A program made the translations under genes and the position numbers. Source: Rhizopus arrhizus (Eukaryota > Mucoromycota > Mucoromycetes > Mucorales > Rhizopodaceae). From it: a stretch of 64,000 nucleotides of DNA. The stretch spans positions 248,001 through 312,000 of the forward strand of contig JAKZZE010000030.1 of assembly GCA_024220505.1 (NCBI GenBank), written 5' to 3'. This document shows positions 5,080-62,728 of this stretch, in pieces. Within the stretch, counting starts at the first letter, position 1. Each line of letters opens with the position of its first letter. The notes under the pieces were generated by a model, which did not search any database, was not told the DNA's origin, and worked only from the letters and a program-made list of their open reading frames with translations.

Positions 5080-5282
5080 ACCTGCTTATTTTGCAATGTG
5101 TTCTAAACATCGCCTACTTATCGATCATAAATCACCGGAACTAATATATCAGTCTTATATATGATAATATATGACTCATATCTTTAATTTAAAGTATAAA
5201 TAGCTTCACATTATCCTTTTTTTGTTACAATATTCTTAGTCTCTTTCTATACTGCACTTCTTACGACTTTGTCCTGCATCAA

Positions 5283-6314
5283 ATGACTCTTACTATAAGC
5301 AAATCTGTTCAAAAACAAATCCAAATGTTTTTGGCTAGTAACATAACATATGAACAAGTTATGGAACGCATTTCCGGATTGAAAAAGTCAACTTTAGGTA
5401 GGTATGCGAACAAGTTTTTTCCAAATCGAATGAAGGCAACCCCTGGTAGAAGAGCAACTATTGGTGAAACTACCAAGTCATACATCCGTATACAAATAAT
5501 AAAGGATGAATTCAGGACAGCCAAAGCAGTACATCAATATCTGAATGGTTTGGTGTATGCTATTAGTTATTTTAGAGTCTTGAAGCTTCTTAAAAGTATG
5601 AAATTCAGAGCTAAAATCAAAGCGAAGAAGCCTCTGCTCAGTAAACAGCACAAGGAACGACATTTAGCATGGGCTATGGCCCACAAAGACTGGACAACCG
5701 ATGACTGGAGGCGTATAATGTTTAGTGATGAGACTAAAGTCAATGTTTTTGGATCAGACGGTTGCAAGTACTACTGGAGTCGACCAGAGGATGTATTGCA
5801 GCCTCATCACTTAGATCTTACAGTTAAAGGCAGCCAAGAAAGTGTCATGGTATGGGGTTGTATTACTTATGATGGCCCTGGGTATGCTTGTTGGATATAT
5901 GACGGAACTATGAAAGCTGTGGATTATGTAAATATCTTGGAAACTACACTTATGGACAGCCTAAAGTACTATAGATACAATCCTGAGGATATGTACTTTC
6001 AACAAGATAAGGATCCTGAGCACACTTCGAAGCTTGCTAAGCAATGGTTTGTGCATAATAGCTTCAAGAGTGATCATATCTTTAGCTGGCCAGCCCAAAG
6101 TATCGATTTAAACCCTATTGAACACGTATGGCATCACCTTAAACTCAAGCTGAGTGTATATGACATTAAGACTAAAGGAGTACATGAGTTATGGGAAAAA
6201 ATAGAAAAAGAATGGAATACTTTTACAGTGGATGACTGTAGAAGATATATAGATAGCATGACTGATCGTTGTAAAGCACCTATTAATGCTAAAGGGGGAC
6301 ATATCCGTTATTAA
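5283..6314 (+). CDS. Tc1/mariner-family transposase
   Basis: 343-residue DDE transposase that cuts and pastes the surrounding element. Seen: an N-terminal helix-turn-helix region (residues 5-75), first catalytic Asp in MFSDETKVNVFG, the WGCITYDGPG strand typical of the family, second Asp in MYFQQDKDPEHTS, and the last acid in WPAQSIDLNPIEHVW. 37 residues separate the second Asp from the Glu by my count, so this is a DD37E-type variant rather than the common DD34E. The DKDPEH sequence replaces the usual DNAPCH. No stop or frameshift. Promoter and terminator presumably lie in the flanking 200 bases on each side. Confidence 0.93.
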   Translation: MTLTISKSVQKQIQMFLASNITYEQVMERISGLKKSTLGRYANKFFPNRMKATPGRRATIGETTKSYIRIQIIKDEFRTAKAVHQYLNGLVYAISYFRVLKLLKSMKFRAKIKAKKPLLSKQHKERHLAWAMAHKDWTTDDWRRIMFSDETKVNVFGSDGCKYYWSRPEDVLQPHHLDLTVKGSQESVMVWGCITYDGPGYACWIYDGTMKAVDYVNILETTLMDSLKYYRYNPEDMYFQQDKDPEHTSKLAKQWFVHNSFKSDHIFSWPAQSIDLNPIEHVWHHLKLKLSVYDIKTKGVHELWEKIEKEWNTFTVDDCRRYIDSMTDRCKAPINAKGGHIRY

Positions 6315-12029: not shown

Positions 12030-15000
12030 GATTTGCCAATTTTCGTTTTGCAAGTCCTTCTGTCATCAAATTTCTGATTTTTGACGCGGATTTTCTCGAC
12101 TTTCAGAAGTCGTATCTCGACCCGGATTTTTTTAATGACCTTGTATTTGCCCGCACTCTTGCTTGGAGTAATAGGATGGAGGAAAAAAACAACGGAACTT
12201 CGAGAATCTCGCAGTTGACCATTTTTGGTACAATAAACTCCGCTTGAAAATAACAGAATCGTGTTCTGTGACCCCAATAACCATATTAAGCATATTAAAC
12301 TCCGCACGCGGAGTTTATATATGTATATATAGTATGTGGACGGTAAATCTTTCACAGATCCCTCGTCTTGGTGACCTCACTGGTGATGCATTGGTCTCTC
12401 CTCGTGGTGCTGCTATGGTTCGCTGGCTTGCTGATCGTTCCTTGACCGTTCTGAACGGCCCACTGGCTCATGGTATTCCTACCTGGGTCGGGTTTCGTGA
12501 TGATCGAGAGATGAGTAGCATCATTGACATGTTTTTAACCAACGCGTCATTGATGTCTCCTCGCCTTGACATCGCGTCTGACTTGTCTCTTGGTTCTGAC
12601 CATCGTCTACTAACGCTGTCTTTTTCTTTTGCTCAGTCAAGTGCCTCTGAGTCATTGACTGATACTACTGATGCTACTATTCATCCTCGTCGATTATGGA
12701 ACTTGTCTCGCCTTGGTGAACCTGATCCATGTCAACTCTATCAAGATACCTTTTGTACGTCCTCTGCTCCATTGCTTTCTCAACTGAAGAGGTTGGTTCA
12801 ACACCCTCCTTCTTCACGTCCGCCAATTGACGACCTCAACGCGTCGCTCAACAACATCATCTACAGCTCTCTTGACTCTTCTGTCGGTGACCGACCTCCA
12901 CGTCCATCGCATTGGAAAAAGTACTGGACGCAACAACTTCAAGATACTGCTGATTTCCGCAACAGATGTTACCGTAGATGGCGTCGTGCCTTTGGTATTG
13001 ACAAAGTCTACTGGTGGCATCAACATCAACAAGCCAACGTCTCCTTTCGTCAAGCTGTGGCCAATGCCAAACGTCTCTCTTGGCAAGCATTCTGTAAGTC
13101 TTTAGAAACTGACTTTACCAAAGCGATATCAAAAGTCAAGCAACTCAAACGACGACATCAGTCATCATCGTCATTTTCTCATCCTGATGGTCCATCTAAG
13201 GCAGTGGAGGTAATGGCTAGTCACTTGGCTTCGGTCTTTGATGGCAGTCTTCTACCTTCCACTCGTCCACCTTCTCCTCCATCTTCATCCTCTCTTGGTT
13301 TGCCTCTTGGTCTACATGGTTCGTCTCCTTCTGGTACGTCTCCCTCTGGTTCCTCTGGTTCCTCTGGTCCTCCTGGTTCAAGTCACTCATTATTCGCTCC
13401 TTTAACAATCCATATGTATATCGGTCAGCTCCCTACTCGTAAAGCTCCTGGTGCTGATCACATCAAGGCCGAGATGCTCAAGCCGATCAGTACTGACCTC
13501 TCCCACTTGCTGTCTTGGTTCTTCTCCTTGTGCTGTCAATGGTCTTACGTTCCTTCTCTCTGGCGGCATGCTCAAGTCTATCCGATCTTCAAGAAAGGTG
13601 ATCCTTCGCTGCCGTCCAACTATCGACCTATCTCACTGACCTCGGTATTTAGAAAGCTCCTTGAGCTTAGTCTTGCTCCATGGCTCGCCTCGGTGTCGGC
13701 TCGACTTGATCTGGCTCAAGGTGGCTTTCGTCCTCGTCGCTCAGCTCTTGACCAAGCCCTATGTCTTCATGAGCTGATGCAGTCCTATTATCGTCGTTCA
13801 CATCGTTTTCCTGTGGTTGCATTCCTGGATATCAAGTCGGCCTACGATACCGTCGACCGGCGTGTTATCTGGGATGCTCTCTCTCGTTCTGGTGCTGGTT
13901 CGTCTCCTTGTCTGCCTCTCTTGGTCCATCTTTTTGATGATGTCTCGGTATCTGTCTTGGTGTCTAATCACTCGTCCGCTCCTTTTTCTCCTGTCACCGG
14001 TGTCTTGCAAGGTTCTGTCCTCAGTCCTCACTTGTACTCGGTGTACATCAACACATTACCTGCTCTCCTTCGTCAAGTCGCTGCTCCTGCCACCCATTTG
14101 GTTCCCTCCTCTGGTCGCTCCGATGCTGGTATGGTCCCAGTCAACTCTCTCCTCTTTGCTGACGATGTCGCAGTCATTGGCTCGGCAAAGTCAGTCAAAG
14201 AGATGCTCAAGCTCTGTGAGGATCACTCGCTGTCTCTTGGCTATCGATGGAATCCTCTGAAGTGCGCGGTGCTCAACCACCCCACTTCCTCTTCATCATC
14301 ATCTGGTTCAACCCAACTTACACTCTATGGTACTTCTCTGCCTTTGGTCGAAAAGTTTGTATACCTTGGTATGCCTTTCGTCAAGACTGGTCTCTCTGCT
14401 GCTTCGGTGCTTCCTCTTCGTTCTCCTGGTGTTCTAAAGCTCATGTCGATCCTCAATTTTATAGGTGTCAATCGTCAAGGCTTTTCTCTTCTGTTGTGTG
14501 CTCGCATTTATGCTACTTTTGTCCGTCCCAAGTTCGAATATGGTCTCGCTATCTCAAAGTTTACTGCAATTCAAGCCAAAGAAATAGAACGTCTTCAAGA
14601 TCGCTGCCTTCGTATGATGGTAGGTGGTCATGCCACCTCCTCTACATTGGTCATCAAGCATATGACAACCTTGCCGTCTATGCACCACCGCATAGATGTA
14701 CTTACAACTCGTTTCTGCCTTCGTGCCCGTTCTCTCCCTGGCTCTTGTCTGCTGTCTCTTCTATCGTCGACATTGCCAGTGTCTCGAGTCAAGATTCATC
14801 TTGAAAAGAATCCGCTCTTCTTGGCTTTGCCTTCTCCTCTTCCGTCCTCCGATGCTCGGCTCAAGACCTTCTTTCGCCAGTATCGTGAGCGTCAAGTCAT
14901 CTCTCTCGTCACCTCCACTACCCAGGTTCTCTTACGCGCATGTCGCCCTGCTCTGGTGGTTGATCCCATCTTATACGTTCCTGCAACCCGTGCAGAACGC

Positions 15001-15811
15001 TCTCTCTTGGTTCGTTGGCGTCTTGGTTGGTTACCAGGTAAGCCTGAAGACTGTCCTTGTGGACGTGATCGTCGTTCCCGTCGCCACTTTCTTGAGTGCG
15101 ATTTGATACCGTCTTTCCTCTGGTCTGATCTGCCGCGCTGTCCTCCTTGGTCTTATCCCATTGACTATGCTCTCTCTTCGTTGCCTCTTGGCCGTTCAGC
15201 TCGCTGTCCTCCTTGGTGGTCATCGCTGCTTCTTATGCTTTGGCATATTCAACGTCTCTGCCGTCCTGATAGCTTCTATGCTATTGACTCTTCTCCTGGT
15301 GCCTTATGGTATTCTAGCTCTTCTCGTAACTCTGACTGAAACCCTTCTTTGTCTGTCTCCTGCTGATCCCCCACGGAAGTAAAGCCATCAAAGTTCCTTA
15401 CCGTTGGGTTGTGACAGTAGGTCAGCTAAGTTGTGGAAGTAGGCAGTCCATCTGATCTTTTTTCTTTATCTTTTTTTTGGAGTTTTTCTGTTTCTCAGGC
15501 TCCTTTTTTTGTACTTGTTCTTTTTTCTTTGTACTTGAAGATGCAACAATGACTTTTTAGTCGCCTGCAATTTATCTTCGTTATTTAATAAAAACAAAAT
15601 CTTTAACCTGAGCTAAGCGACCACCTTTCTTTCGCTCTTCCGACCGTTACACAAGGTATAGTACGCGTAATCAACTTTGAACTCAAATATCTCTGCGAAT
15701 ACGATACATCCATCCACCGTTTTAACACCAAAATAATCGTCGTATTTTTCTCTACAAACTATATTTTTTTCAACTCGATTGCTCTATTTTTCATCATTTT
15801 CGACATTTCCC

Positions 15812-34588: not shown

Positions 34589-36191
<1,603 letters not shown>

Positions 36192-36436: not shown

Positions 36437-39400
36437 TTACTTTTTTTGCACTAAAGGCTTATTACATTTAGGACAACGGTGTCCTTGGGGATTTCGAGCA
36501 AGACTTCTGATGACCCCACACTCATCATCCATGAAATCTCCACAAGGTAAACGTACAGATATTCTAGTTAAACAAGGACCACACTTTTCATAACATCTAC
36601 GCGTACATGGATGCTTGCATTCCAATATTTTCCCACAAGATTGTTTACACAAGATATCATCATGTTCATATGGATGACAGTTGAGAAGGCACTAATAAAG
36701 AGTTAAAATAAAACAATACAACAGTCGTCATTTACCTCATGCCCACAATCAAGCTTTTCACCACAAGGTCGAGAACAACCACCTTCTGGGACTTCTACGA
36801 AATCAGATGCCCACTGAACTTGTGTGACAGTATTATGTTTTACACATTTCAAAGGTAAGCTTGTTCCGATCATATTCTCCTGTCTTTCTTCTAAACCAGC
36901 AATGATTTCATTCCACAGCTCACTCTTTTCACATAATAAGCTTGCATTTCCCAAGATATACATTCCCTATTCATTATTTAGTATGAATTATGATAAAATT
37001 TAAATGTATTACGTGTTTTGCTCTCGAAAGAGCCACACAGACACGATTGGCTGCTTTCAGGAAACCAATCTGACCTTGCGTATTACTACGAACCAAAGAC
37101 AAGATGATGATTTCATTTTCTTCACCTTGATATCCATCCACACTGGATACCTGAATAGTATCTGTGTCCATATTTGGTCTTCGTGCTTCCCGAAGAAACT
37201 TTTTCAAAAGGGTCTTTTGTCCTGAATACATCGTAATGATCGTAATCTTACTGGCTGAGTAACCTTGCTGCATCAAATAGAATGACAGCTTGGCTGCAAA
37301 CTTAGCCTCATGTTCATTCACTTTAGATGCAGAATCAGGTAGGTTATGTTCATCTTCATTGTGACTCAAGAAGAAAAGAGATTGAGCTACGCCTCGAATC
37401 GCAGGGTATCTAATTACGTCAGGATGATCTTGAAGAGGTGGGTCTCGGTAAATGGGGTTGATCAATTGTCGAATTTCGGGTCGCATACGTCTTTGGTGTG
37501 ATAGACGTGTGAACGGGAATTGATTCATGACTAAACGTTCAAACAAGGAGATGGACAGCCCATGCACTTCAGATAATTTATGAACAGAGGTAGAAGGTCT
37601 CAGCTGCTGATGATCACTAAAATTAGGCAGTAGTCAGTCTACTGTCGTTAGGTCGTCAGTTTCATTATTTACCCAATCAAGATTAAATGTTCTAAAGAAG
37701 TAGTAAGAGCAGATATGATATGTGACTCTAGCATTTCAGCTGCTTCTTCTACAATCAGGATACGTGGGCGCATTTCTTCTAATAAATCATGGTATTTGGC
37801 CTACGTTATATACATGAATGATAAAGACACACACCTTCTCTTTTAATTAAGTAACTTACAGCCGCGGTACTCGTCATACCAACTACACGATTTTCTCTAC
37901 AAATCTTTGCTTCATATTTAGCCATGATCGTACGGATCTCTTTTGATATTTCTGTATAACGAGTCATGAGATGACGCAAAGCAGCTTCCAATCCTTGATT
38001 CCTCAACTCTATCCATCTCTTGTGTGCTTTCAATCGAGCAGCCAGTGGCCACCTAAACATATCGTCTTCCTTCATCCATCTTTCTACCGCATCATTCCCA
38101 TCGGACAATGATCCCCACATATTTTGCTCATTCACATCCTTCTCTTCCTCTGATTCATCAAAGAAATTAAAATTGACATCAATATCTCTTCGCTTTTCAG
38201 ATTTTTGATAATTCACCACCTTTCTTCCAGGTTGTTCTCCTGGACCTGATTCGGTCAATCGTTGATAGGCCTTTCCGAGCGGGATGAAGGGATTTTTTCG
38301 AGCATCAGAGAGTTCTTCACCTTTAAAATTTTGTTGAATGTCTTGCATTTCTTCTTCATCAATCAAATTGTCTTCTTCATCAATCATGTCTTCATAGATC
38401 TTTCCCTTTGTTTGTTCTAGCAATTCTTCCTTTCTCTCATCATTGAACCTGCCCAGGTTTTCATCGGAAACAAAATCAATAGCATCCTTCAGCCATATTT
38501 CGATAGGATTCGTCACTTTCTCCTTGACTTCTTGATTTCTGTTTGGATTACCTCCTTGCCACAAGTTATTCGTATTACTTAATCCTTTTGTATTATTCTT
38601 ATTCATCTTATTGTTGTCGCGTCGACCACTTTGCTGCTGTGGTTTCTTGACCGCAGTCAGTACAGACGTAATCTCCCATTCTTCATCAGAGTCACTGTCA
38701 ATATCAATAGATTGAGCAGATTGTTGTTGTCTTGTTTCTTTTTTTTCCTTTTCTCTAGTGCTTGCTGCCTTTAAACAATCCAACTGACGAGGTCTCAGTC
38801 CTTGGATCGATTTAACAAAATCAAGCGTCACACAGGGTTCTTCATACAACTGAATCAAGGTCTCTTTTATTTTCTTTACGACATCATCCCGAGAACGATA
38901 CAGTCGGCCGATACCGTGTGGGCCTTTAAGTAATTTTTTGTGTTCATAAAGTGTGTGCTGCTTTAATAATTCTGATTTTGATCTTCCTCCCACACGAACA
39001 ATTTTATCATTGTAGGTTAAAATATGCTCCAAAAATTGATCCAAAGCTAGTAAAATAATTTATCAAGATGCTATAAAACAATTCATCAGCCACTTACCAT
39101 GGTTGGTTTGACAAATGCAAACAATGGGACCCAGTGATTCATTAAAATTGTTCAACAAGACTCTCATAGCATATGTACCCACAAATGTTTTACCAGAACC
39201 GGGTGGACCTAGTGAAATAGATGAGCACCATACACTGCTGATTTATAAAGAACATACCTTGAATAATGGAGAGGTTTCTAGATAAAATAGTTTTGAGAGC
39301 ATCCAATTGTGTTTTATCCATGCCTGTGTTATATTCAGGCCAAGCACCCATGATATCTATCGGCCAACGCTCCCCTCGATGGGATGTCTTGTAGACGTTT

Positions 39401-40597
39401 GCATCATATATTCTCTTTTTAGCCGCATAATGAGGCACAAGTATCTCCTTTGACAGATTGACGATATAAGGTGAGAAAGGCAGTTCGTCCGATTTGACCT
39501 TTTGCAGCACTTTCAATATATGTCGATAAGCTTCAAAGTATCCGTCTGTGGCTTCAATCATCACATAGGTGTCTTTATCCGACAGCGTTGGATCACCAAA
39601 ACCAAGAGGTTGTTCATCATTGTCTCGTTCTAGATACAAATCAAGCATATATTCGAATCGATTCGGTCCCTGCATCGGCTCTTCTCCTCTGTCAACAATT
39701 GTGGCCACCTTTAGATCCGTCTCAAAATGATCCTTGGATAGCAAGACAAGCGAACCAGGAACCAATCGTTTTGATTGCGCCCATTGAACACGTACATAAT
39801 AAGGTAAACGAAAACTGATCCTATACAAGGGTTGGCGTGTGCCAAAGACAATGGCGTTCAATTGAACCTAGACCAAAAAGAAAAAAATGAGCTCTCCTTT
39901 GTACGTGTCAGCTGTATATTAATTTACGTGTTCATAAAGACGAAAAGGTTTCTGAGCTGGTGATAGTTTTTCCATTGCCACACTTAAATCTTCATTCCCC
40001 TTGATAGCAGCATAGTCTTTCTTGTACCCTTTGACTGCATTTCTCAAAGGAATAAGAAAATCATGTCTCATCAGTTCATAGTGGGTATACAAGTATTGTT
40101 CCGCACTTTCATAAGGTGATCGAACTTGATTCACAGGCACGTCAGGTATAGGCATACGATAATCATCAAATTCATCCGTTGCTGTCGTCATCATTATATC
40201 GTCATAATCTGGTACGATCTCTTGGTCACGAAACGAACTGTAATCGACCACTTTAGAAAATACGGGTGCGTCAGGAATGTCCAGGTTCAGACGAAATGTG
40301 GCTGTTGGTTCCTTGATGTTAGAAAATCGTCCAGAGGTTTGCTCGTGTGATTCCCAGACGTCTTGCTGATCCCACTGTCGACTGGAAAGCTGAGTGACTT
40401 TGAAATCGTTCGTAAGAGAATCCAACGTGGCATGAACAACAGGCGTATCATCTAAACTGTATGTGTCGGAAGAGTAGATAAAAATAAAATAAAAAAGGTT
40501 AACATCGACTTTGGATTTTGCTTGGTTTATACTCTGACGTATCCCAGTTAAAGCTATTCCATTTAGCTCGAGAGCCACTGCTTTTTTTATTAGACAT
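36437..40597 (-). CDS. rnhA: SF1 RNA helicase with NFX1-type zinc fingers (sex-locus helicase)
   Basis: Nine exons: 36437-36691, 36736-36966, 37013-37616, 37673-37800, 37860-39046, 39098-39208, 39258-39867, 39928-40451, 40504-40597; 1247 residues. UPF1-like superfamily 1 helicase: Walker A GPPGSGKTF, Walker B/motif II ILIVEEAAEM, motif III GDHQQLRP, SHQRRMRPEI (IV), VDGYQGEENEIIILSLVRS (V) and ALSRAKHGMYILGN (VI). The C-terminus has NFX1-type Cys-rich repeats (CGEKLDCGHE, CGKILECKHPC). An acidic, low-complexity insert sits between motifs Ia and II. Family: ZNFX1, fission yeast Hrr1, Neurospora SAD-3; role in RNA silencing is family knowledge. Gene name by synteny next to the HMG gene. Its ATG is only 69 bases after the HMG gene stop. 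Confidence 0.93.
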
Positions 40598-40666
40598 GTG
40601 AAAATATTTTTATGAAAAAAAAAAAAAAAAGTACAAAATATAAAGCCAGTGTTCCTTTATGTAATA

Positions 40667-41233
40667 TTATGGCATTATTGACAATAACAGATAAAATTCA
40701 TAATCGATCAATGATAGGGCATCAAGGTCTGTTCCTTCTGGAAATATTTGTAAATCTTGAACCATAGAAGACGGCGGTGAAGATGGGCTAACATCATCAA
40801 AGCTTACATTTTTATGTACAAAAGCCATTTGATTATCCATTTCTCCAGCAATTGGTGTTGTATCTGCTAGCACTTGGTATTCATTTTTGTCATCATGCGC
40901 AAGGCTTTGTCTCTTTGGGCAGTACTTATAACCAGGATGTTTAGCTAAGTGTCTAAGTTTTTCTTCTTCTGCCAAACGATGATAATACATGCGAACCTCA
41001 TTACTTTCTCTTCTCCACATTTCTGCAGCAATTTTTGAAAAGTCTTTACTAAGAAGCTTTGTTTTACTTAAAGGTAAACCCTTTTGCTTCTCTTGCCTAT
41101 ACAGCATGAATGCATTTTTTGGTCTCGGTGTTTTTTCTTTTGTCGTGTCAACCTGATGGGAAGATATTTCTTCGTTGCTTGAGGATGACCTATTGTTTGT
41201 TATAGTTTCATCAACAAAAATAAATAAGCTCAT
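40667..41233 (-). CDS. HMG-box mating-type regulator (sexM or sexP)
   Basis: 188 residues, no intron needed. A MATA-type HMG box spans about residues 37-110: PRPKNAFMLYRQEKQKG, then SKIAAEMWRRESNEVRMYY, LAEEEKLRHLAKHPGYKY and CPKR, with the conserved Asn-Ala-Phe, Trp and the KHPGYKY basic end expected for DNA-bending sex factors. Ser-rich N-terminus (NNRSSSSNEE) and an acidic C-terminus (SPSSPPSS, EGTDLDALSLIDY) that could be a transactivation region. It lies between a triose-phosphate transporter and an NFX1 helicase, all three on the minus strand, the hallmark of the mucoralean sex locus. Which allele (M or P) cannot be decided here; gene symbol left blank for that reason. Confidence 0.92.
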   Translation of the reverse strand: MSLFIFVDETITNNRSSSSNEEISSHQVDTTKEKTPRPKNAFMLYRQEKQKGLPLSKTKLLSKDFSKIAAEMWRRESNEVRMYYHRLAEEEKLRHLAKHPGYKYCPKRQSLAHDDKNEYQVLADTTPIAGEMDNQMAFVHKNVSFDDVSPSSPPSSMVQDLQIFPEGTDLDALSLIDYEFYLLLSIMP

Positions 41234-41491
41234 GCTGCAAGTAGCGGGGAAATTCTATAAAGAAAAGACAAGAAAACAAGGAAAAAGAAATAAACAGAAA
41301 GAAAAACAAAGAAAATGTGTAGGCCATTGATGTTTTTGATGGATAAAGAACAATGAACTAAATGCAGTTGTAGTCAGGAGCAGCAAAAGAAGGAGAAGCT
41401 CTTCACAATATGCCAGATTTTATATTTACATACTTATTTATTATTCATTGGCCAGACGATCAACTTTAATTCATGGGAAACTTTTCGATGT

Positions 41492-41651
41492 TTATTTTTC
41501 AGCTTCTTCGGGAACAATATAATAGATATATTCTTTCACTGGCAATATTCAAATTATTATGTTAATTTGTTTGATTAACAAAATTTAGAATACCTAGTAA
41601 TGCTAATTGCCTTAATGGCTTCGGTCTGGCTGGCATGGCTGCTTGTGACAT
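41492..41651 (-). CDS. Candidate spliced 34-residue microprotein gene inside the sex locus
   Basis: Two exons, 41594-41651 and 41492-41538, joined by a 55-nt GT-AG intron with a TTAAC-type branch site, give a 34-residue protein starting MSQAAMPARPKPLRQ and ending VPEEAEK before TAA. The N-terminal half is basic, the middle (LRQLALLVKEYIYYIV) hydrophobic, the end acidic. I do not recognise it; it could be a small mitochondrial or membrane subunit, or chance. It lies between the HMG gene and the transporter, about 260 bases upstream of the HMG start. The rest of 41234-42057 shows no other ORF and must contain the HMG promoter. Confidence 0.4.
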
Positions 41652-42057
41652 TTCTCACATAAGTTATCAATAAGCCAATCTTCTTTCGGTCATAAAAGAT
41701 AATAATCGAATTGCTTTTTATAAACTGTAGAAATTCCAGAAAGAAGGCGCTTTTTTGTTGTTGGTTTCATTTTTAAAGATAATAGTTAAGTAGGCTCTAT
41801 TAACAGTTATTAGAAGCTTTCTTGAGAATGGCCAAAACATATTTTCGTTCAATTGCCTATTATGTGCCTCAGCACTTTGTTTTAAACAATTTGTTACCTT
41901 CTATCTTTTTTCTTAAAACATCAACTAATATATATTTCTTTATACTCTTTCTTCCTTTGGTATTTAATAGTTAAAAAACATAAATTGGTCTCTTGTTTTA
42001 CTTAAAGTTACAGCAGAATAATTAAAAATTGTTTTTATTTTATAATAAATAAATGCT

Positions 42058-43522
42058 CTAAAGATTTTTAGAATTATGTGTCGAGTTATTGAACGTTGGC
42101 GTCCAAGATGAAGTGTTGGATTGCTTTTTTGATTGGTTCATAGGCAATAAATCAATGGGATCTTCTCTGATCTTCGTTTCGCCTTTATCAACATCGCTTT
42201 TAGCTTTTTGATACATCCATAACCCAAAGAAAGTTAACAATATACCGATTGATTGAGTGATGGATATATTTTGTCCAAACCAAACAATACTCATCACAAT
42301 TACAAAAATTCTTTTCAAAAGTGATAATATCGAGTAAGTAACAGGCGATGTGAGACTGAGTGTGGTGAATGCAAACCAATTTTGAGAAAAATTCATTGTG
42401 CCGTTCAATAAAAAATAAAATACTAGCTCTAAATTCGAAGGCGTTGCCACTTGATTGTCTTCGGCGTCAATGCCTTGAAAGAAAAGGGCGCTTCCGTCAT
42501 AATATAACCAAAGAGGCACCATGAGTAAAAATGACAATAAAGACGAATAGTATAACACATTCAGCTTGTCTAATTTGTTTGGATTTCTATCACCCAGCTT
42601 GGATTCTTTAAATAATATCTTCTTGCTGAATATATTTTGCATGACAAATATAAAGCAGGACCCTAGAGCACAAGCCAAGCCAAAGAAATTATTTGAATAG
42701 GTAAAAGAGCATGCAAGGATAACTCCTAATGTAAGAGGGATTAATGATATATATACTCTTTCTGTATATTGGACTTGGAATATTATTCGATAAAACAAGA
42801 CTGTGAATAAGGGAGCTAAAGCCTAATAACATAAGATACCATATATACGGATACATTTCTATTCTTTTTCTTACTTTAATTGTATGCACTAAACTAACTG
42901 GTATTCTGCTGATGGCAACACTAGAGAATACATGGCCAATAATAAGGAATACTGCTAAAGGTGCAATCGTTTTCACAATATCTTTTGTAGGTGTTCTAAT
43001 ATGTGTGTGTGTAAAAAAGGTCGAGATAAGATAGCACCAGATTGCTACAAGTCCAAACTGAACAAAAGTAAGAGTAATAGGGTACTTGAACATGTTCATA
43101 ATAGTTTTTCCGATATTGTTTGTAAGCGATGAGGATATGTACCACATGCAGCAGTTAAGAATAAACTTCAAATTATCGCTTATCGTAAAATGTTTATTTC
43201 CTGGTATTCTATTCCATAAAAATTCCTTTAAATTGCTGTCATCCGTGTTGTCAACATGCCGAGTTGAAAGATCATTCCTTAGTTCTGATTGTTCATTACG
43301 AATGAAAGAAAAAAATCCATTATGTTGTTCAAAGTTTGTTCTTGGTTGATTTTTAGAAGAAAAAACTCTTTTTGTGCCAAAAGAGCTTGTTGTTCTTGGC
43401 AAAGAATTGCCTTTTTCGTTCATCCAAATCAAAGGCTGTTGATGAATCTTTTCATTTTCATAAATGTAATTTCCATTCCGTGATGCATCAATTGTACCTA
43501 ATTGAAGCACATTGTTTCCCAT
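42058..43522 (-). CDS. tptA: Triose-phosphate transporter family protein (sex-locus tptA)
   Basis: Exons 42058-42822 and 42875-43522 with a 52-nt intron; 470 residues. A TPT/SLC35-type membrane transporter of phosphorylated sugars, probably in Golgi or ER membranes. Seen: a hydrophilic N-terminus (about 115 residues, Asn/Ser-rich), then about ten hydrophobic segments: FILNCCMWYISSSLTNNIGK (TM1, with the family NNxxK signature), YPITLTFVQFGLVAIWCYL, the helix before the intron with VSLVHTIKALAPLFTVL, the family's conserved HTIKAxxP motif, then FGLACALGSCFIFVMQNIFSKK and the C-terminal VTYSILSLLKRIFVIVMSI. Flanks the HMG gene on the side opposite the helicase, as in other Mucorales; gene name by synteny and family. 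Confidence 0.92.
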
Positions 43523-44447: not shown

Positions 44448-47400
44448 ATGGATCTAAAATTATTATGTATTATTGGCCATAATTGTGTTGCTACCTTGGA
44501 ACTTTATAATCAAGAAAGATGTTCCAAAGGTGCTGCAAAAAGTAGAACTCTTTATATGAAATGCATGTGTCACAGCAAGCGAATAACTGAAGCTTTTTAT
44601 TTGTTATTTTTTATTTTTAATACGCAGCAACAAATAAAATACCTTTTTCTTCCAAAGAAAGAAAGAGACAATCTACAGTTCACAAAGTTTATGGTTTCGA
44701 TCTTCAAAGTCATTCGAGAAAACAATGTCCAAGTATTAAATCAGCTGATTGGTTTAGCGACTGGAGAAGTACCTATTACACACTACAACAATGATTATTT
44801 ATCAAAGCAAGAGCTTGTACAATTGCAACAACAGTTGAAATACACTGGTTTAAAACTATTAGATCTTAACAAAAGATCAGCAAAAGGTAGAACGGCCCTT
44901 CATGTCGCAGCCAGTTGGAATAGAGTAGAGATCGCTCAGTTGTTGATCAACTGTCCGCTGGTCAATGTCAACTTGCAGGATCGAGAAAATGGCTGGACTG
45001 CTCTGCATAGGTATTTTTTTTAAAAAAATACTTCTACAAAAACTTATTGTTTTTATGCTATAGAGCGCTTTTTATGGGCAATGTAGAGATTGCTCGAATG
45101 TTGCTGAAGCGGCAAGATATCGACTTATCTATTAAAGTAAATCAAAGCAATTATAAACCATCTGTCATTCTTGACTTACTCGATCTTTCTTTTTATGTAG
45201 GATTGGGAAGGATTTGGAGCGTTTGAATTGTATGATAGCACGATACCTGATGCGTTCCCTGAAATAAGAATGCTGAGTAAAGATAAAAAGAATATAGAAA
45301 GAACAGAAACAGACGACGACGCAGGATTATACAATGTGCTCAATAAAGAACGTCACTTATCTGCTGGAGGAACTGATGTTTATACTTGGGGACAGAACAC
45401 AAATTATGTCCTTGGACATCCCGATTCTGAAAATAGAAGCCGTCCTGAGCGTGTTCATTTCCAACTTGACTCTCAGCAGAACCCAGCAGTGTTGAAAAGG
45501 CCAGCCTATGTGATTGAATCTGTAGTGATGGCTAAATATCATATGGCTATTTTAACTAGCGAATCTACTCGTAATTTGTTAGTGTGTGGATTTGGAAGGG
45601 GCGGACGATTAGGATTGGGCAAAGAGATTGATACACAGTTGGTACCAATACCAGTGCCTTGGTCAGAAAGAATCATGTCAGTCGCATTAGGACGAGATCA
45701 TACAATTGCTGTGACAGAAAGTGGGGTAGTTATCAGTTTTGGAAGTAACGAGTTTGGTCAATTGGGTGAGTTATAGTTTGTTTAAAAGAGCAGCAACAAA
45801 AATTTAGACGAGGAAATTGACAAAGAAAATATGTAGGATATGAAATAGAAAGTGACAATAAAAAGGACGAGGTTCCTATGCAACTAACACCGAAAAAGAT
45901 CCAAGCACAAAGTTTAAAAAAGCAATCCATAGTTGGTGCAGCCGCTTCAAGGATACATTCTGTTGTCTACAATGCCTTTGATCTATTCACTTTTGGCCTC
46001 AATCAAGGTCAATTGGGCTATTATCAAAGTGATAACAATGAATCCTGCCAAACGACGCCCAGAAAAATAAGCATGCCGATCGAGATTAAGCAAGTGATTG
46101 CAAATGTAAAGATCCTTTGCTATCATTCATATGCAAAATGTCTAACCAGCTTCTTTTTTTTTGTGTAGGACAATGCTACAGTTATATTAAACAAAGCTCA
46201 TGAAGTTATTCTACTATGCAACTATACTCAACAAAAATTGTTGTAAGTCTTCTTTAGTTTCTTTTGCCCATTGTCTTGTTGCTCATATTTAAAAAAAAGT
46301 TTTCAGTTTAATAGATTTCCCAGTGACACACAAGTGGATAAACCTGCTGCTAGTTACATTACAAAACTAATCTCAAGCGGCACGGAATATTTGGGGGCCT
46401 TAACAAACATAGGTGATGTGTTTGTGTGGACATGTAAATCTCAAACAAAAAATAACAAGACAATTGTGACAACTCCTAAAAGAGTATGGACATCTGGGAA
46501 AGCACATATGGCTGCGGTTGATGCAAGTCTAGGTCAATATGGGGAGATTATCATCTGTACTGTTTCAGGCCATGTCTTTCTTGGGCGTCCCGAGAATAGT
46601 GGATACAAATTTAAAGAGATGCCTTATATACAGCGATGTATTCGCGTATGTGCAAACTCTAGTGGAGCGTTTGCAGCCATTCGTGCTGAATACCTTTTGC
46701 ATCCTACTGAGGTTGGTCCATCAACTCTTAAATACGACATTAGCCAATCACTTCCACATATGATAATAAGCGAAGAATTGCAAAGGAAGTTGAATGATTT
46801 GAATAGGCAAATGGAAGAGGCTATTCTAAATATCCCTGTTGAAGACGAAGAAAATCAAAATAAACATCAAATGCTTATTCGGCAAAGATATGAAGAGTTA
46901 ACCAATATGGCTGTGGAAAATGCTTGGGAACTTATTGAGGAAAAATCAAGAAAGGACAAGGCATTGGATACTGTGTTTGTGATAGGAAATAGACATGTTT
47001 ATTGTCACAGTTCTATCTTGGCTTGTCGCAGCCAAATATTCAAGCGCCTCGCAAAAATGGTTGACAAGAGCATAGGAAGCTTTAATGTTCGCTTAACCAA
47101 GCGTCAAGACAACCGGATTGAAGTACATATTGACAATTGCGAGCTGGGTTCCCTATTGCTTATGATTGATTATATTTATACTGACGAATATGAACATCCA
47201 ATGAAAGTTTTCTTTTGTTCACCTGTTCTATCTGGTGAAGCGGATGTGAGAAAGATACAAAAAGATCTGGTAAATTTGGCTGAACTATTTCACTTACCAC
47301 ATCTACTGGCATCAGCACAGTCCTCCTTCAACCATCAGCCAACACCCTCACTTCTCTCTAGTCTAGATGGCCTTGTTGGGCAGCATCATCCGAATATAGT

Positions 47401-48364
47401 ACTAAAGGTGAATGATAAAGAGATACTGTGCCATGAAGTCATCTTACGCCAGCGGTGCGTTTTTTTCAAGCATTTACTCTCTCCTCAATCCACCTGGGTA
47501 GCACAAAGAAGAGAGCAGCAAGATGAGATGATTGAAGTCGATTTAGAGCACATGTCAAGTGAAGTTGCAGAAACTATAGTTCAATACTTTTATCTGGATA
47601 AAAGCTCATCCTCATTGTTTGATCGTATTGAAAAGGGTACTGAAGAAGCCATGCTCCATTTCTTGCTCGATCTCTTGTGTGAAGCCGATGCACTTTTGCT
47701 TAATAGATTGAAATTGATTGTAGAAAATGCTATTGTTCAATTTATCAAACTTCGAACTGCATCCACGATTTTGGAGCATGCTGATGTGTATTGGGCTAAT
47801 AGTTTGAAAAATACTTGTTTATCGTTTGTGAGGGCTAATTTATCTGCTTTCTTATCTTCAAGGTATACAAACTTCAAAAAAAAAGAATGATTCTTCTTAC
47901 CTTTTTCTTGTAGAATGCTGGATCATTTACCTGTTTCTTTGATATTAGAGCTAGAAGAGCATGTACGTCAATCACAGTCGAAGGAAATTCCATTAGTTCC
48001 TAGGGGCAATTTCAATAGCACTAATGTTGTAGATACCGCCGAAATCGAGGATGATGAGTTCTCGACATCTTTGTATGCCTTGAGTCGAGGAGACGGTAGT
48101 AGCGCTGGCGCTTTTACAGAACTCTTGGTTACTTTATATCCCGAAAAGTCTTCTTCCGCGATAGAGCTAGAAATTAAGAAAGAGAAAGAGCCTGATGAGT
48201 TAACTGACAAATCACCTGCAAAAACAAAGAAAAGCGTACGCATACCTCTACATGAGCTGGTCGAGAGCGCTGCACAACCCGTTACTCCCTCTTATAACTG
48301 GGTATCTAGTACCGAAAATGTTCTAGGGTAAATTTTGACTTTTTGTCTTGTATACATTAACCAC

Positions 48365-48400
<36 letters not shown>

Positions 48401-49140
48401 AGAAGCAAGCCTTCTTTACGAGATATCTTAGAAGAAGAACATCAAACTATAGATGCAACATCTAAGTCACCAAAGGTTTGTCATAAAAATAAAAGTAACG
48501 CCCTCTTTATGCTCACACCACATATTCTTAGTCTACCGCACTTAAAAAGGTTTCACAGAAAGAGAGAAAAAAACTAAATTTACAACTGCAAGAACCATCA
48601 TCATCTCAAGCAGCTAAACCTGTATGGGGTAAAATTTCCCCAGCACCAGCAAAGCCATTCCGAAAAACAATGGCTGAAGATGAACAGCAAATGATTGTAG
48701 ATAAAAAAGGAAAGAAAATGTAAGTTGATCTTTACAGGAGAATAGACTTATTCTTACGAAATATGTTTATTAGATATGTCTCTGAAGAAGAGTTATTGAG
48801 TACACCAAGAGAAACAAAGCCTATAGTGAAAGAAAAAGAAATTATATACAATCCTGTGGAAAGCATTAGTTCAACATTTCAATTGACGCCTATACGTCGA
48901 CAAGTCAAGGGCTCTTCTAATCAACCTGGTTCATCGTCTGCAGTTCAATCATTTCAAACGATTCAAAAGCAACAATTAGAAGATCATTGGTTAAAGAATG
49001 CTAGACCTAAAAAGAATTTATTACGAATTCAAAAAGAAGAACAAGCGATTGCCGGACTAGAACAATATTATATTCAAACGCTGAATGTTATGAGCGGTGA
49101 ATGGTGTCATGTACAGAGAGTGACGAGCAGTCGTAAATAA
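44448..49140 (+). CDS. Ankyrin-RCC1-BTB protein (sex-locus-linked btbA type, IBtk-like)
   Basis: Ten exons: 44448-45010, 45064-45136, 45201-45765, 45837-46105, 46169-46242, 46300-47862, 47914-48327, 48403-48475, 48532-48719, 48774-49140; about 1382 residues if the first ATG is right (a further intron before 44627 is possible). Order: ankyrin repeats (GRTALHVAASWNRVEIAQLL, GWTALHR), RCC1 repeats (DVYTWGQNTNYVLGH, VCGFGRGGRLGLG, SFGSNEFGQLG, FGLNQGQLG), two BTB/POZ domains (DTVFVIGNRHVYCHSSILACR; NIVLKVNDKEILCHEVILRQ) and a conserved tail (LRIQKEEQAIAGLEQYY). This is the architecture of inhibitor of Bruton kinase homologues, likely Cullin-3 adaptors. A gene of this type has been reported beside the Rhizopus sex locus. 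The intron at 46243-46299 has a weak acceptor. Confidence 0.88.
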
Positions 49141-55740: not shown

Positions 55741-55934
55741 TACGCCTTTATCCTTCTAAATTTGGAAATCTTCAAATAAAGTTGGCATCTTGATTACGGC
55801 AACCTTTTTCCAAGTAAGGAAGCCTTCTGACTGCGCAAATCTACGCAATTAATATAAATAGACACTCAGAAAAAAATAAAAAAAAATAAGAAAACTTGAA
55901 TAATTCAAAAAAAAAAGAAGAGATCAATTCAAAA

Positions 55935-57044
55935 ATGACAGACAGCAACACATTCACTGCATGGACTAGCATTGGCAAAGATAAACCACTGGTTGAAATG
56001 AAACACACACTGAGGCCTTGGGATGAAGACAGTGTCGAGATACAGATCACACACTGTGGTATTTGTGGAAGTGATATTCATACGATAGGTAACCAACCCC
56101 CATTCGATCCTTTCAAAAGAAAGCCGGGGAGACATCTCACATTTATTTTAGATTCCGGATGGCATCCTACGGATTATCCCTGTGTTCCAGGACATGAAAT
56201 CACGGGTGTGGTGACCCAAGTCGGCAAGAACGTCAGCCGGCTCAAGGTAGGCGATCGAGCCGGTCTGGGTCCGCTCTGCTGCTCTTGCAAACAATGCACG
56301 TATTGTGCTCAAGGAGAAGAAAACGTGTGTGAAAAGGGTGTCATCCTGACCTACAATGATCACTGGCCGACGGGTGAGAAAACCTATGGAGGCTACGCTG
56401 ACAAGTGGCGTGGGGATCAAGCGTTTGTCTGCAAGATTCCGGACAACATGACCAATGAAAACGCGGCCACTTTTCTCTGCGGGGGTATCACGACCTATGC
56501 TCCCCTGAAGCGCTTCCACGTTCGTCCTGGGTCTGTCGTCGGGGTCTTGGGTATCGGTGGCCTGGGCCATTTTGGTGTGCTGTTTTCAAAAGCCATGGGC
56601 GCGACCGTCATCGGTCTGTCCTCGAGCGAAAGGAAGCGTGAGGTGGCTGCTGAACTCGGTTGTGATGATTATGTGGTCACGAGTGACACGGAAGCAATGA
56701 ATAAATACACCAATAAGCTGACACATATCCTCTGTACTGGCGTAGGCGAGGACTTTACTTGGGAACCTTACTTTAAGATCATGAAACCAAACGCTGTCTT
56801 TATCAACGTCAATGCTCCCGAGTTCACATATCCACCGGTGCCTTTGATGATGCTCATGTTCAAGCAAGTCACTATCAGTGGATCTCTTGCAGGTTCTCCT
56901 GCAGATGCTGAAGACATGCTCCAGCTTGCTGCTGACAAAAATCTTCGCGCTTGGTATAAAAAGTATCCTATGAAGGATGTCAATAAGGCAATTGAAGATT
57001 TCAGAGCTGGACAGGCTAGATTTAGATTTGTATTGGAAAACTAA
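55935..57044 (+). CDS. Zinc-dependent alcohol dehydrogenase (CAD/ADH6 type), left copy
   Basis: NADP-type medium-chain dehydrogenase of the cinnamyl-alcohol dehydrogenase/ADH6 group, reducing aldehydes to alcohols. Exons 55935-56088 and 56152-57044, 348 residues. The 63-nt intron stays in frame, but removing it joins CGICGSDIHTI to DSGWHPTDYP, the normal family spacing. Seen: catalytic zinc ligands Cys (CGICGSD) and His-Glu (PGHEITGV), structural-zinc cysteines in GPLCCSCKQCTYCAQGEENV, cofactor fold GVLGIGGLGHFGVLFSKAMG with GLSSSERK after the second strand. Start at MTDSNTF because the upstream ORF extension is poly-Lys from an A tract. Identical neighbour copy in inverted orientation at 61422-62531 differs by one residue. 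Confidence 0.93.
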   Translation: MTDSNTFTAWTSIGKDKPLVEMKHTLRPWDEDSVEIQITHCGICGSDIHTIGNQPPFDPFKRKPGRHLTFILDSGWHPTDYPCVPGHEITGVVTQVGKNVSRLKVGDRAGLGPLCCSCKQCTYCAQGEENVCEKGVILTYNDHWPTGEKTYGGYADKWRGDQAFVCKIPDNMTNENAATFLCGGITTYAPLKRFHVRPGSVVGVLGIGGLGHFGVLFSKAMGATVIGLSSSERKREVAAELGCDDYVVTSDTEAMNKYTNKLTHILCTGVGEDFTWEPYFKIMKPNAVFINVNAPEFTYPPVPLMMLMFKQVTISGSLAGSPADAEDMLQLAADKNLRAWYKKYPMKDVNKAIEDFRAGQARFRFVLEN

Positions 57045-57104
57045 AAATTAATTTATAAACAATAAAACTCTTGTGAAACCGATCATAAATCAGTTTTAGC
57101 CTCT

Positions 57105-57136
57105 GTGTATATATATATATATATATGTGTGTGTGT
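57105..57136. repeat. TA/TG microsatellite in the dehydrogenase 3' flank
   Basis: (TA)n followed by (TG)n, about 32 bases. The counterpart in the right arm (about 61335-61362) is shorter, so the tract has drifted since the duplication. Confidence 0.85.
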
Positions 57137-60581: not shown

Positions 60582-61193
60582 TTACTTTGTCTTGTTTCGT
60601 TTGTTAAAATAATTAGTTGTGGTTGGCACATTGGTATGAGATGAGCGTTTACGTTTGCCAATGTTATTATTGATGTTATGTCTTGCCCAGTATTGCTCAA
60701 TCATACTCATGTCATCAAAACATGAAACAGGTTCCCATGTATCATATTCTGGAGGATAACATTTCCATCTCAGTAGGTATTTATAGTCACTAGTGTTATT
60801 TTCTTTATGTTGGATAATTGCCTGCACATCGTACTGTTTTTGGTCAGCGCGATTATTAACAACGTTGCCTGTAAAGATACGTTTGATGTGTGAGGTAAGT
60901 ACGTCGCGCGATAATAATGCACATGTTTTATCCGTCAAAATGTAGTTACCATTTTTTGTGACTCCACGTACGACAAAGGGGCCCTCGTACCTTCGGTCAG
61001 TTTTACCATTTCTATTCACATTTTTATCATACTTTGCTATTAGTAGGAAACTCTTGATGTACAATGCAGTGTTTCTTTGTAAAATACTCGTTGTCAGTTC
61101 TTTGAGTAGTCATAATACGGTTACGTATAGCAGGGATTACTATGTTGTTCATATTGTCTAATTTATTTTCTAGTGCTTTAGCATACTGCTGAC
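60582..61193 (-). pseudogene. Chromodomain integrase C-terminus of a Ty3-type element (fragment)
   Basis: Reading minus from the right-arm edge: AKALENKLDNMNNIVIPAIR and FTKKHCIVHQEFPTNSKV, a frame change near 61045, then NVNRNGKTDRRYEGPFVVRG (GPF/Y module), and a chromodomain with YKYLLRWKCYPPEYDTWEPV and its C-terminal helix MIEQYWARHN, ending with a basic tail. The catalytic DDE core is missing, so only the targeting end of a chromovirus-type integrase remains. It differs from the integrase at 1516-2844, which has no chromodomain. It abuts the palindrome arm exactly. Confidence 0.82.
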
Positions 61194-62728
61194 TAATCGA
61201 CAGCCACTGGAATAGTATCCACAGACTCTTGTGCATGCATATTTGTGATATCAAACTTTTGTATGACATGCATTCTTTCATCCACTTTTATATACTATCG
61301 CTTCCGCTTGATGCTAAAGTGGACAATGGTTGCACACACACACATATATATATATATACACAGAGGCTAAAACTGATTTATGATCGGTTTCACAAGAGTT
61401 TTATTGTTTATAAATTAATTTTTAGTTTTCCAATACAAATCTAAATCTAGCCTGTCCAGCCCTGAAATCTTCAATTGCCTTATTGACATCCTTCATAGGA
61501 TATTTTTTATACCAAGCGCGAAGATTTTTGTCAGCAGCAAGCCGGAGCATGTCTTCAGCATCTGCAGGAGAACCTGCAAGAGATCCACTGATAGTGACTT
61601 GCTTGAACATGAGCATCATCAAAGGCACCGGTGGGTATGTGAACTCGGGAGCATTGACGTTGATAAAGACAGCGTTTGGTTTCATGATCTTAAAGTAAGG
61701 TTCCCAAGTAAAGTCCTCGCCTACGCCAGTACAGAGGATATGTGTCAGCTTATTGGTGTATTTATTCATTGCTTCCGTGTCACTCGTGACCACATAATCA
61801 TCACAACCGAGTTCAGCAGCCACCTCACGCTTCCTTTCGCTCGAGGACAGACCGATGACGGTCGCGCCCATCGCTTTTGAAAACAGCACACCAAAATGGC
61901 CCAGGCCACCGATACCCAAGACCCCGACGACAGACCCAGGACGAACGTGGAAGCGCTTCAGGGGAGCATAGGTCGTGATACCCCCGCAGAGAAAAGTGGC
62001 CGCGTTTTCATTAGTCATGTTATCCGGAATCTTGCAGACAAACGCTTGATCCCCACGCCACTTGTCAGCGTAGCCTCCATAGGTTTTCTCACCCGTCGGC
62101 CAGTGATCATTGTAGGTCAGGATGACGCCCTTTTCACACACGTTTTCTTCTCCTTGAGCACAATACGTGCATTGTTTGCAAGAGCAGCAGAGCGGACCCA
62201 GACCGGCTCGATCGCCTACCTTGAGCCGGCTGACGTTCTTGCCGACTTGGGTCACCACACCCGTGATTTCATGTCCTGGAACACAGGGATAATCCGTAGG
62301 ATGCCATCCGGAATCTAAAATAAATGTGAGATGTCTCCCCGGCTTTCTTTTGAAAGGATCGAATGGGGGTTGGTTACCTATCGTATGAATATCACTTCCA
62401 CAAATACCACAGTGTGTGATCTGTATCTCGACACTGTCTTCATCCCAAGGTCTCAGTGTGTGTTTCATTTCAACCAGTGGTTTATCTTTGCCAATGCTAG
62501 TCCATGCAGTGAATGTGTTGCTGTCTGTCATTTTTGAATTGATCTCTTCTTTTTTTTTTTGAATTATTCAAGTTTTCTTATTTTTTTATTATTTTTTTTT
62601 TGAGTGTCTATTTATATTAATTGCGTAGATTTGCGCAGTCAGAAGGCTTCCTTACTTGGAAAAAGGTTGCCGTAATCAAGATGCCAACTTTATTTGAAGA
62701 TTTCCAAATTTAGAAGGATAAAGGCGTA
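61194..62728 (-). repeat. Right arm of the 1.53-kb inverted duplication
   Basis: Reverse-complement partner of 55741-57276. The arm ends at GGCGTA (62728); to the right the sequence is unrelated to that left of 55741. Confidence 0.93.
61422..62531 (-). CDS. Zinc-dependent alcohol dehydrogenase (CAD/ADH6 type), right copy
   Basis: Exons 62378-62531 and 61422-62314, 348 residues. Same motifs as the left copy (CGICGSD, PGHEITGV, structural Cys cluster, GIGGLGHFG). The only protein change I see is Arg for Gln in AEDML(R/Q)LAADK. Other base differences are silent in this frame, although several change the antisense frame, indicating purifying selection or recent duplication. Both copies keep about 190 bases of identical 5' flank, so both may be expressed. 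Confidence 0.93.
   Translation of the reverse strand: MTDSNTFTAWTSIGKDKPLVEMKHTLRPWDEDSVEIQITHCGICGSDIHTIGNQPPFDPFKRKPGRHLTFILDSGWHPTDYPCVPGHEITGVVTQVGKNVSRLKVGDRAGLGPLCCSCKQCTYCAQGEENVCEKGVILTYNDHWPTGEKTYGGYADKWRGDQAFVCKIPDNMTNENAATFLCGGITTYAPLKRFHVRPGSVVGVLGIGGLGHFGVLFSKAMGATVIGLSSSERKREVAAELGCDDYVVTSDTEAMNKYTNKLTHILCTGVGEDFTWEPYFKIMKPNAVFINVNAPEFTYPPVPLMMLMFKQVTISGSLAGSPADAEDMLRLAADKNLRAWYKKYPMKDVNKAIEDFRAGQARFRFVLEN

Follow-up and report, generated by a model that had tools for sequence, protein, structure and literature searches.

A probable minus allele of the mucoralean sex locus in Rhizopus arrhizus, with an open arbA gene beyond tptA

The question raised by a cluster of three genes in Rhizopus arrhizus, a transporter gene, an HMG-box gene, and a helicase gene, is whether it is the sex locus of this fungus and, if so, which mating-type allele it represents. 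The cluster lies in a stretch of 64,000 nucleotides, positions 248001–312000 of contig C24, which we call the window and which we analyzed along with the rest of the sampled genome (50.3 Mb in 41 contigs). A sequence-only reading of the window had placed the HMG-box gene at 40667–41233, between an NFX1-type RNA helicase and a TPT-family transporter with all three genes on the same strand, and had proposed the mucoralean sex locus. The coordinates and strands given there are exact, both flanking genes are found as gene models with their Pfam domains, and tptA, sexM, and rnhA, in that order from 5′ to 3′, are on the minus strand, spanning 36437–43522 (7086 bp) from the rnhA stop codon to the tptA ATG. 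All three genes have open frames, and sexM is present in a single copy. In our judgment, with a probability of about 0.95, the three genes make up a mucoralean sex locus in its minus form, carried by a member of the R. arrhizus complex, most likely R. arrhizus (R. oryzae) sensu stricto, with SexM as the mating-type determinant.

The sexM gene (40667–41233, minus strand) is a single open frame of 188 codons without an intron, running from an ATG at 41233 to the end of the open reading frame (ORF) at 40667, with an HMG box at residues 35–103 (PF00505 HMG_box, E 2.7e-15). On one side of it, the rnhA model runs from 40597 to 36437 on the same strand, a 4161-bp gene with eight GT-AG introns that encodes 1247 amino acids (aa) with no internal stop; its GPPGSGKT motif spans intron 3, and its product matches ZNFX1 (PF25396, E 3.1e-21), AAA_11, AAA_12, and AAA_19. 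The description of this helicase as NFX1-type needs a small correction: the domain it carries is ZNFX1, and no NF-X1 zinc-finger model matched it at E ≤ 1e-3, although by eye one can see a tail rich in Cys and His. On the other side, the tptA model runs from 43522 to 42058, also on the minus strand, with one 52-bp intron (42874–42823) and matches to the PF03151 TPT family in both exons (E 4.8e-41 and 2.8e-15), and its product has 470 aa if translation starts at 43522 and 437 aa if it starts at the ATG at 43423. The region between sexM and tptA, on the promoter side of sexM (41234–42057), includes a minus-strand segment rich in C and T at 41259–41315, and the only ORF of at least 70 aa inside it is one of 73 aa.

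Is the HMG protein SexM? The candidates in our protein searches had to have short exact words in common with the query. The first search used SexM of the window and yielded four proteins at E ≤ 0.001 from 140 candidates sharing such words, and the second used a four-row SexM-like alignment and yielded 57 proteins at E ≤ 0.01. The closest named relative is the SexM of Syzygites megalocarpus, which is identical at 89 of 188 positions (47% over 99% of the length), and this likeness reaches past the box to include a C-terminal PPSS..QDLQ.FPEG stretch. The second named sex protein is the SexM of Phycomyces nitens, 31% identical in the alignment-based search. These two are the only hits named as Mucorales sex proteins, most hits being unnamed, and no protein named SexP was among the hits of either search. 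One unnamed protein, also of 188 aa, is 93% identical to SexM of the window, a gap close to the 6.2% amino-acid difference reported between the minus HMG genes of R. oryzae and R. delemar (PMC3000332). For R. oryzae, Table 2 of the same paper lists a minus protein of 188 aa and a plus protein of 314 aa, against 180 and 253 in its text. From these likenesses, we conclude that the HMG protein is, as judged by similarity, SexM of the minus allele.

We also placed the protein in a tree of HMG boxes with 77 rows and 76 columns, made up of 58 proteins (including that of the window) and 19 HMG paralogs from the genome. These paralogs come from 31 other HMG loci that were fetched from the genome, 12 of which were dropped since their box in one ORF covered fewer than 55 positions (short or split). 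The window protein falls in a group of 13 rows that contains both named SexM proteins, with weak support (82/60), which agrees with the earlier assignment to the sex locus as far as the SexM side is concerned. The tree cannot test SexP because its protein rows were chosen by similarity to the query.

In this group of fungi, SexM acts through trisporoid signaling on the formation of zygospores. If the assignment is correct, SexM, a single-HMG-box DNA-binding protein, would be the mating-type determinant: each strain of a heterothallic species would have either sexM or sexP at the locus, and the sex gene that is present would switch on trisporoid signaling, with zygophore and zygospore formation, leading to mating with the other type. 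SexM would be the switch, and rnhA and tptA would be the conserved borders. We infer that SexM controls mating in this strain and that other strains have an allelic sexP. Deletion mutants of sexM in Mucor circinelloides are sterile (PMC3116813), and in mating R. microsporus both sexM and sexP rise while the neighboring helicase does not (PMC5705715).

The locus alone would not set the mating type if the strain were homothallic or fused and carried sexP elsewhere, as in Syzygites and R. azygosporus. R. microsporus var. azygosporus has both genes in one strain (PMC5982828), and Syzygites, the source of the closest named SexM, is called homothallic in the same paper. In the genome studied here, however, sexM has one full match, its six other matches being HMG-box pieces of 34–35% identity, and there is one full match each for an rnhA exon (among eight, the next best being 35% identical) and for the 547-aa BTB exon of arbA, a gene beyond tptA, so there is no second cluster with these genes. 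The RPxNAFxLY box motif reported for both R. oryzae sex proteins (PMC3000332) occurs once in the 50.3 Mb, in sexM, while the reversed control pattern occurs 0 times, and none of the 19 placed HMG paralogs is inside the SexM group (12 of the 31 loci not being placed). Because sexM is single copy and the box motif is found nowhere else, the genome is most simply read as that of a heterothallic minus strain, and we regard a homothallic or fused strain as very unlikely, with a residual chance that a diverged sexP lies elsewhere in the genome.

More improbable still is that an ordinary HMG-box regulator lies between the helicase and the transporter by chance. In favor of this idea, HMG-box matches in the genome number at least 37, sexM included, but the likeness to Syzygites SexM outside the box and the agreement of gene order, direction, and sizes with the published locus argue against it. 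Since the single direction of the genes, the 188-aa SexM, and the 4161-bp helicase gene match PMC3000332, we take the cluster to be the known locus.

Several points nevertheless weigh against reading the cluster as a minus allele. For this strain, the assignment is a prediction from sequence, and SexM is preferred to SexP for the protein's length and its likeness to the SexM of Syzygites and of P. nitens, with the SexP side judged by length and PMC3000332. In the 76-column tree, the SexM group has support of only 82/60 and also has a long-branch basidiomycete row, P0052. Trees of SexM and SexP proteins can mislead in any case, because the SexM of M. irregularis itself grouped inside SexP (PMC5587739, section 7). 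The gene models also deviate from the published ones, in that our rnhA has eight introns and 1247 aa versus nine introns and 1187 aa in R. oryzae (where the gene measures 4161–4191 bp), and our tptA product has 470 or 437 aa versus a published 440 aa (PMC3000332).

Which member of the complex is this? Genes elsewhere in the genome bear on the species. The mature enzyme encoded by the lipase gene at C34:2004424 shares 268 of 269 residues with PDB 1lgy, which we take to be the Rhizopus niveus lipase. Contig C4 has two lactate dehydrogenase (LDH) genes (C4:1271623 and C4:1068189) that are 88% identical over 322 aa, and the product of the gene at C4:1271623 extends further at its C-terminus, a feature described for LDHA. 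According to PMC3000332, R. oryzae sensu stricto is recognized by having both LDHA and LDHB and R. delemar by having LDHB alone, so the two genes found here agree with R. arrhizus sensu stricto rather than R. delemar. Because of the lipase and the two LDH genes, the organism is very likely R. arrhizus (R. oryzae) sensu stricto.

The sex locus is already known and well described, and finding it here mainly labels the genome as that of a minus strain. One loose end is at arbA. The trio of genes had been taken to define the locus, and the trio is present, but the neighborhood is wider, the trio being flanked by a glrA-like gene and, at the opposite end, by arbA. The arbA model (44691–49140, plus strand; name from PMC5982828) encodes 1296 aa in one spliced frame with nine introns, open throughout, with ankyrin, RCC1, and BTB domains, and it stands head to head with tptA, with 1168 bp between their ATGs. 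A BTB/ankyrin/RCC1 gene has been described between TPT and sexP in plus strains and as absent in all minus strains tested (PMC3000332), and PMC3116813 repeats that the minus allele is without it. In the window, tptA and the HMG gene indeed have no such gene between them, but the published statement, taken literally as absence from a minus strain altogether, fails, as arbA is open just beyond tptA. The statement may have meant the amplified locus only; the published R. oryzae minus fragment should end near TPT because it is 6.96 kb long (PMC3000332).

The difference between plus and minus strains at arbA may therefore be one of position and not of presence. We give about an even chance to the proposal that, in the R. 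arrhizus complex, the alleles differ by the place of arbA and not, as published, by its insertion: outside tptA in a head-to-head arrangement in the minus allele, and inside, flanked by tptA and sexP, in the plus allele. In that case, arbA would have been drawn into the plus idiomorph by a rearrangement around tptA, as a recent stratum of the sex-determining region through which one mating type may be linked to a regulator with a BTB domain. If this is true, Rhizopus plus and minus alleles differ by a rearrangement of neighbors, which bears on how the sex-determining regions of early-diverging fungi grow by capturing adjacent genes. The position of arbA is itself a small and directly checkable correction to the published account, and it may already be in print: the available text of PMC5982828, Figure 5 aside, names arbA but does not place it beyond tptA in minus strains, and no further account of its position in Rhizopus minus strains was found by title and abstract, with Idnurm 2011, Schulz 2016, and Lee and Idnurm 2017 outside our reach.

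A protein search with the arbA exon, in which the top 7994 candidates by shared words were scored among proteins of at most 957 aa, gave 18 hits, 13 of them 44–51% identical and the other five 24–26%, and one with an organism name, Mucor saturninus. A plus-strain fragment, RO3G_01289 (590 aa, PMC3000332), was not among these 18 hits though it is within the 957-aa limit. Little about the plus allele follows from the absence of a close hit, because the full arbA protein, at 1296 aa, exceeds that limit and because scoring was confined to those 7994 candidates. Around tptA, a search for inverted repeats of at least 20 bp that could explain a flip turned up no more than two pairs, each with arms of 20 bp and one being a homopolymer run, and the repeat search there also found one 28-bp direct repeat. 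The tptA gene has a 69% paralog on contig C4; a second sex region around this paralog was considered and rejected, as only the transporter matched when ORFs of at least 70 aa from 19.8 kb were compared with 32.5–58 kb of the window.

On the other side of the trio, the exons of a glrA-like disulfide (glutathione) reductase gene (34810–36164, plus strand), with Pyr_redox_2 and Pyr_redox_dim matches, adjoin the 3′ end of rnhA. The piece at 34810–35124 matches only below the Pfam cutoff, and a 5′ exon starting near 34.6 kb, outside the listed exons, is visible by eye. The gene is not unique, because the exon that was searched has relatives on C3 (87%) and C34 (61%).

Elsewhere in the window, an inverted repeat of 1264 bp (55870–57133 and 61333–62596, 98% complementary and 4199 bp apart) holds two open zinc alcohol dehydrogenase genes, and an ORF between the arms (60582–61109) resembles, by eye, a chromodomain-bearing retroelement piece. 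Four same-direction copies of a non-LTR-like retroelement, 68–97% alike by 300-bp segment, occupy 4590–32100; reverse transcriptase was confirmed in one of them (12175–15339), and the first is split at about 4.9–6.5 kb by about 1.7 kb in which an ORF (5193–6314) resembles, by eye, a Tc1/mariner-type transposase. Another ORF, of 460 aa (1462–2844), resembles, by eye, a retroelement integrase. No tRNA genes and no Rfam families at gathering score were found in the window. Outside it, two malate-dehydrogenase-like genes on different contigs (C15:228193–228676 and C41:1212076–1212559) have identical 212-aa ORFs, which suggests a recent duplication or an assembly duplicate.

How does the locus compare with those already described? 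The sequence-only reading had pointed to a similar cluster in microsporidia, and there the HMG and TPT genes are indeed clustered, with the helicase in some species, but the parallel is weaker than implied, as PMC2866331 describes the microsporidian helicase and TPT as paralogs of their counterparts in the zygomycete sex locus and reports that no idiomorphs were found. Mucor circinelloides, M. irregularis, and Phycomyces blakesleeanus share the HMG gene between rnhA and tptA but have TPT, and in Phycomyces sexP as well, in the opposite orientation to Rhizopus. We rejected the idea that the same-strand order in the window is unusual, since PMC3000332 (section 6) gives it as the R. oryzae state, in which the genes all point the same way, in contrast to Mucor and Phycomyces. 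The place beyond tptA that arbA takes in the window is occupied in several Mucorales by an alginate lyase gene (PMC7928374); a search with PF05426, the only one made for this gene, found three matches, all on other contigs.

The plus locus of R. oryzae and R. delemar (PMC3000332) has the same rnhA and tptA borders and an HMG gene between them, all in one direction, but it has sexP in place of sexM, and its BTB/ankyrin/RCC1 gene is between tptA and sexP, whereas here it is outside tptA. The closest counterpart is the minus locus of R. oryzae (R. arrhizus), GenBank HQ450316 (PMC3000332, Gryganskyi et al. 2010), which we compared by its published description. Like the window, it has rnhA, sexM, and tptA in one direction and a SexM of 188 aa, our 4161-bp rnhA is within its 4161–4191 bp, and our 7086 bp compares with its 6.96 kb; the number of rnhA introns and the rnhA and tptA protein lengths differ somewhat. 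By its 6.96 kb, that published locus should end near tptA, whereas the window continues into an open arbA.

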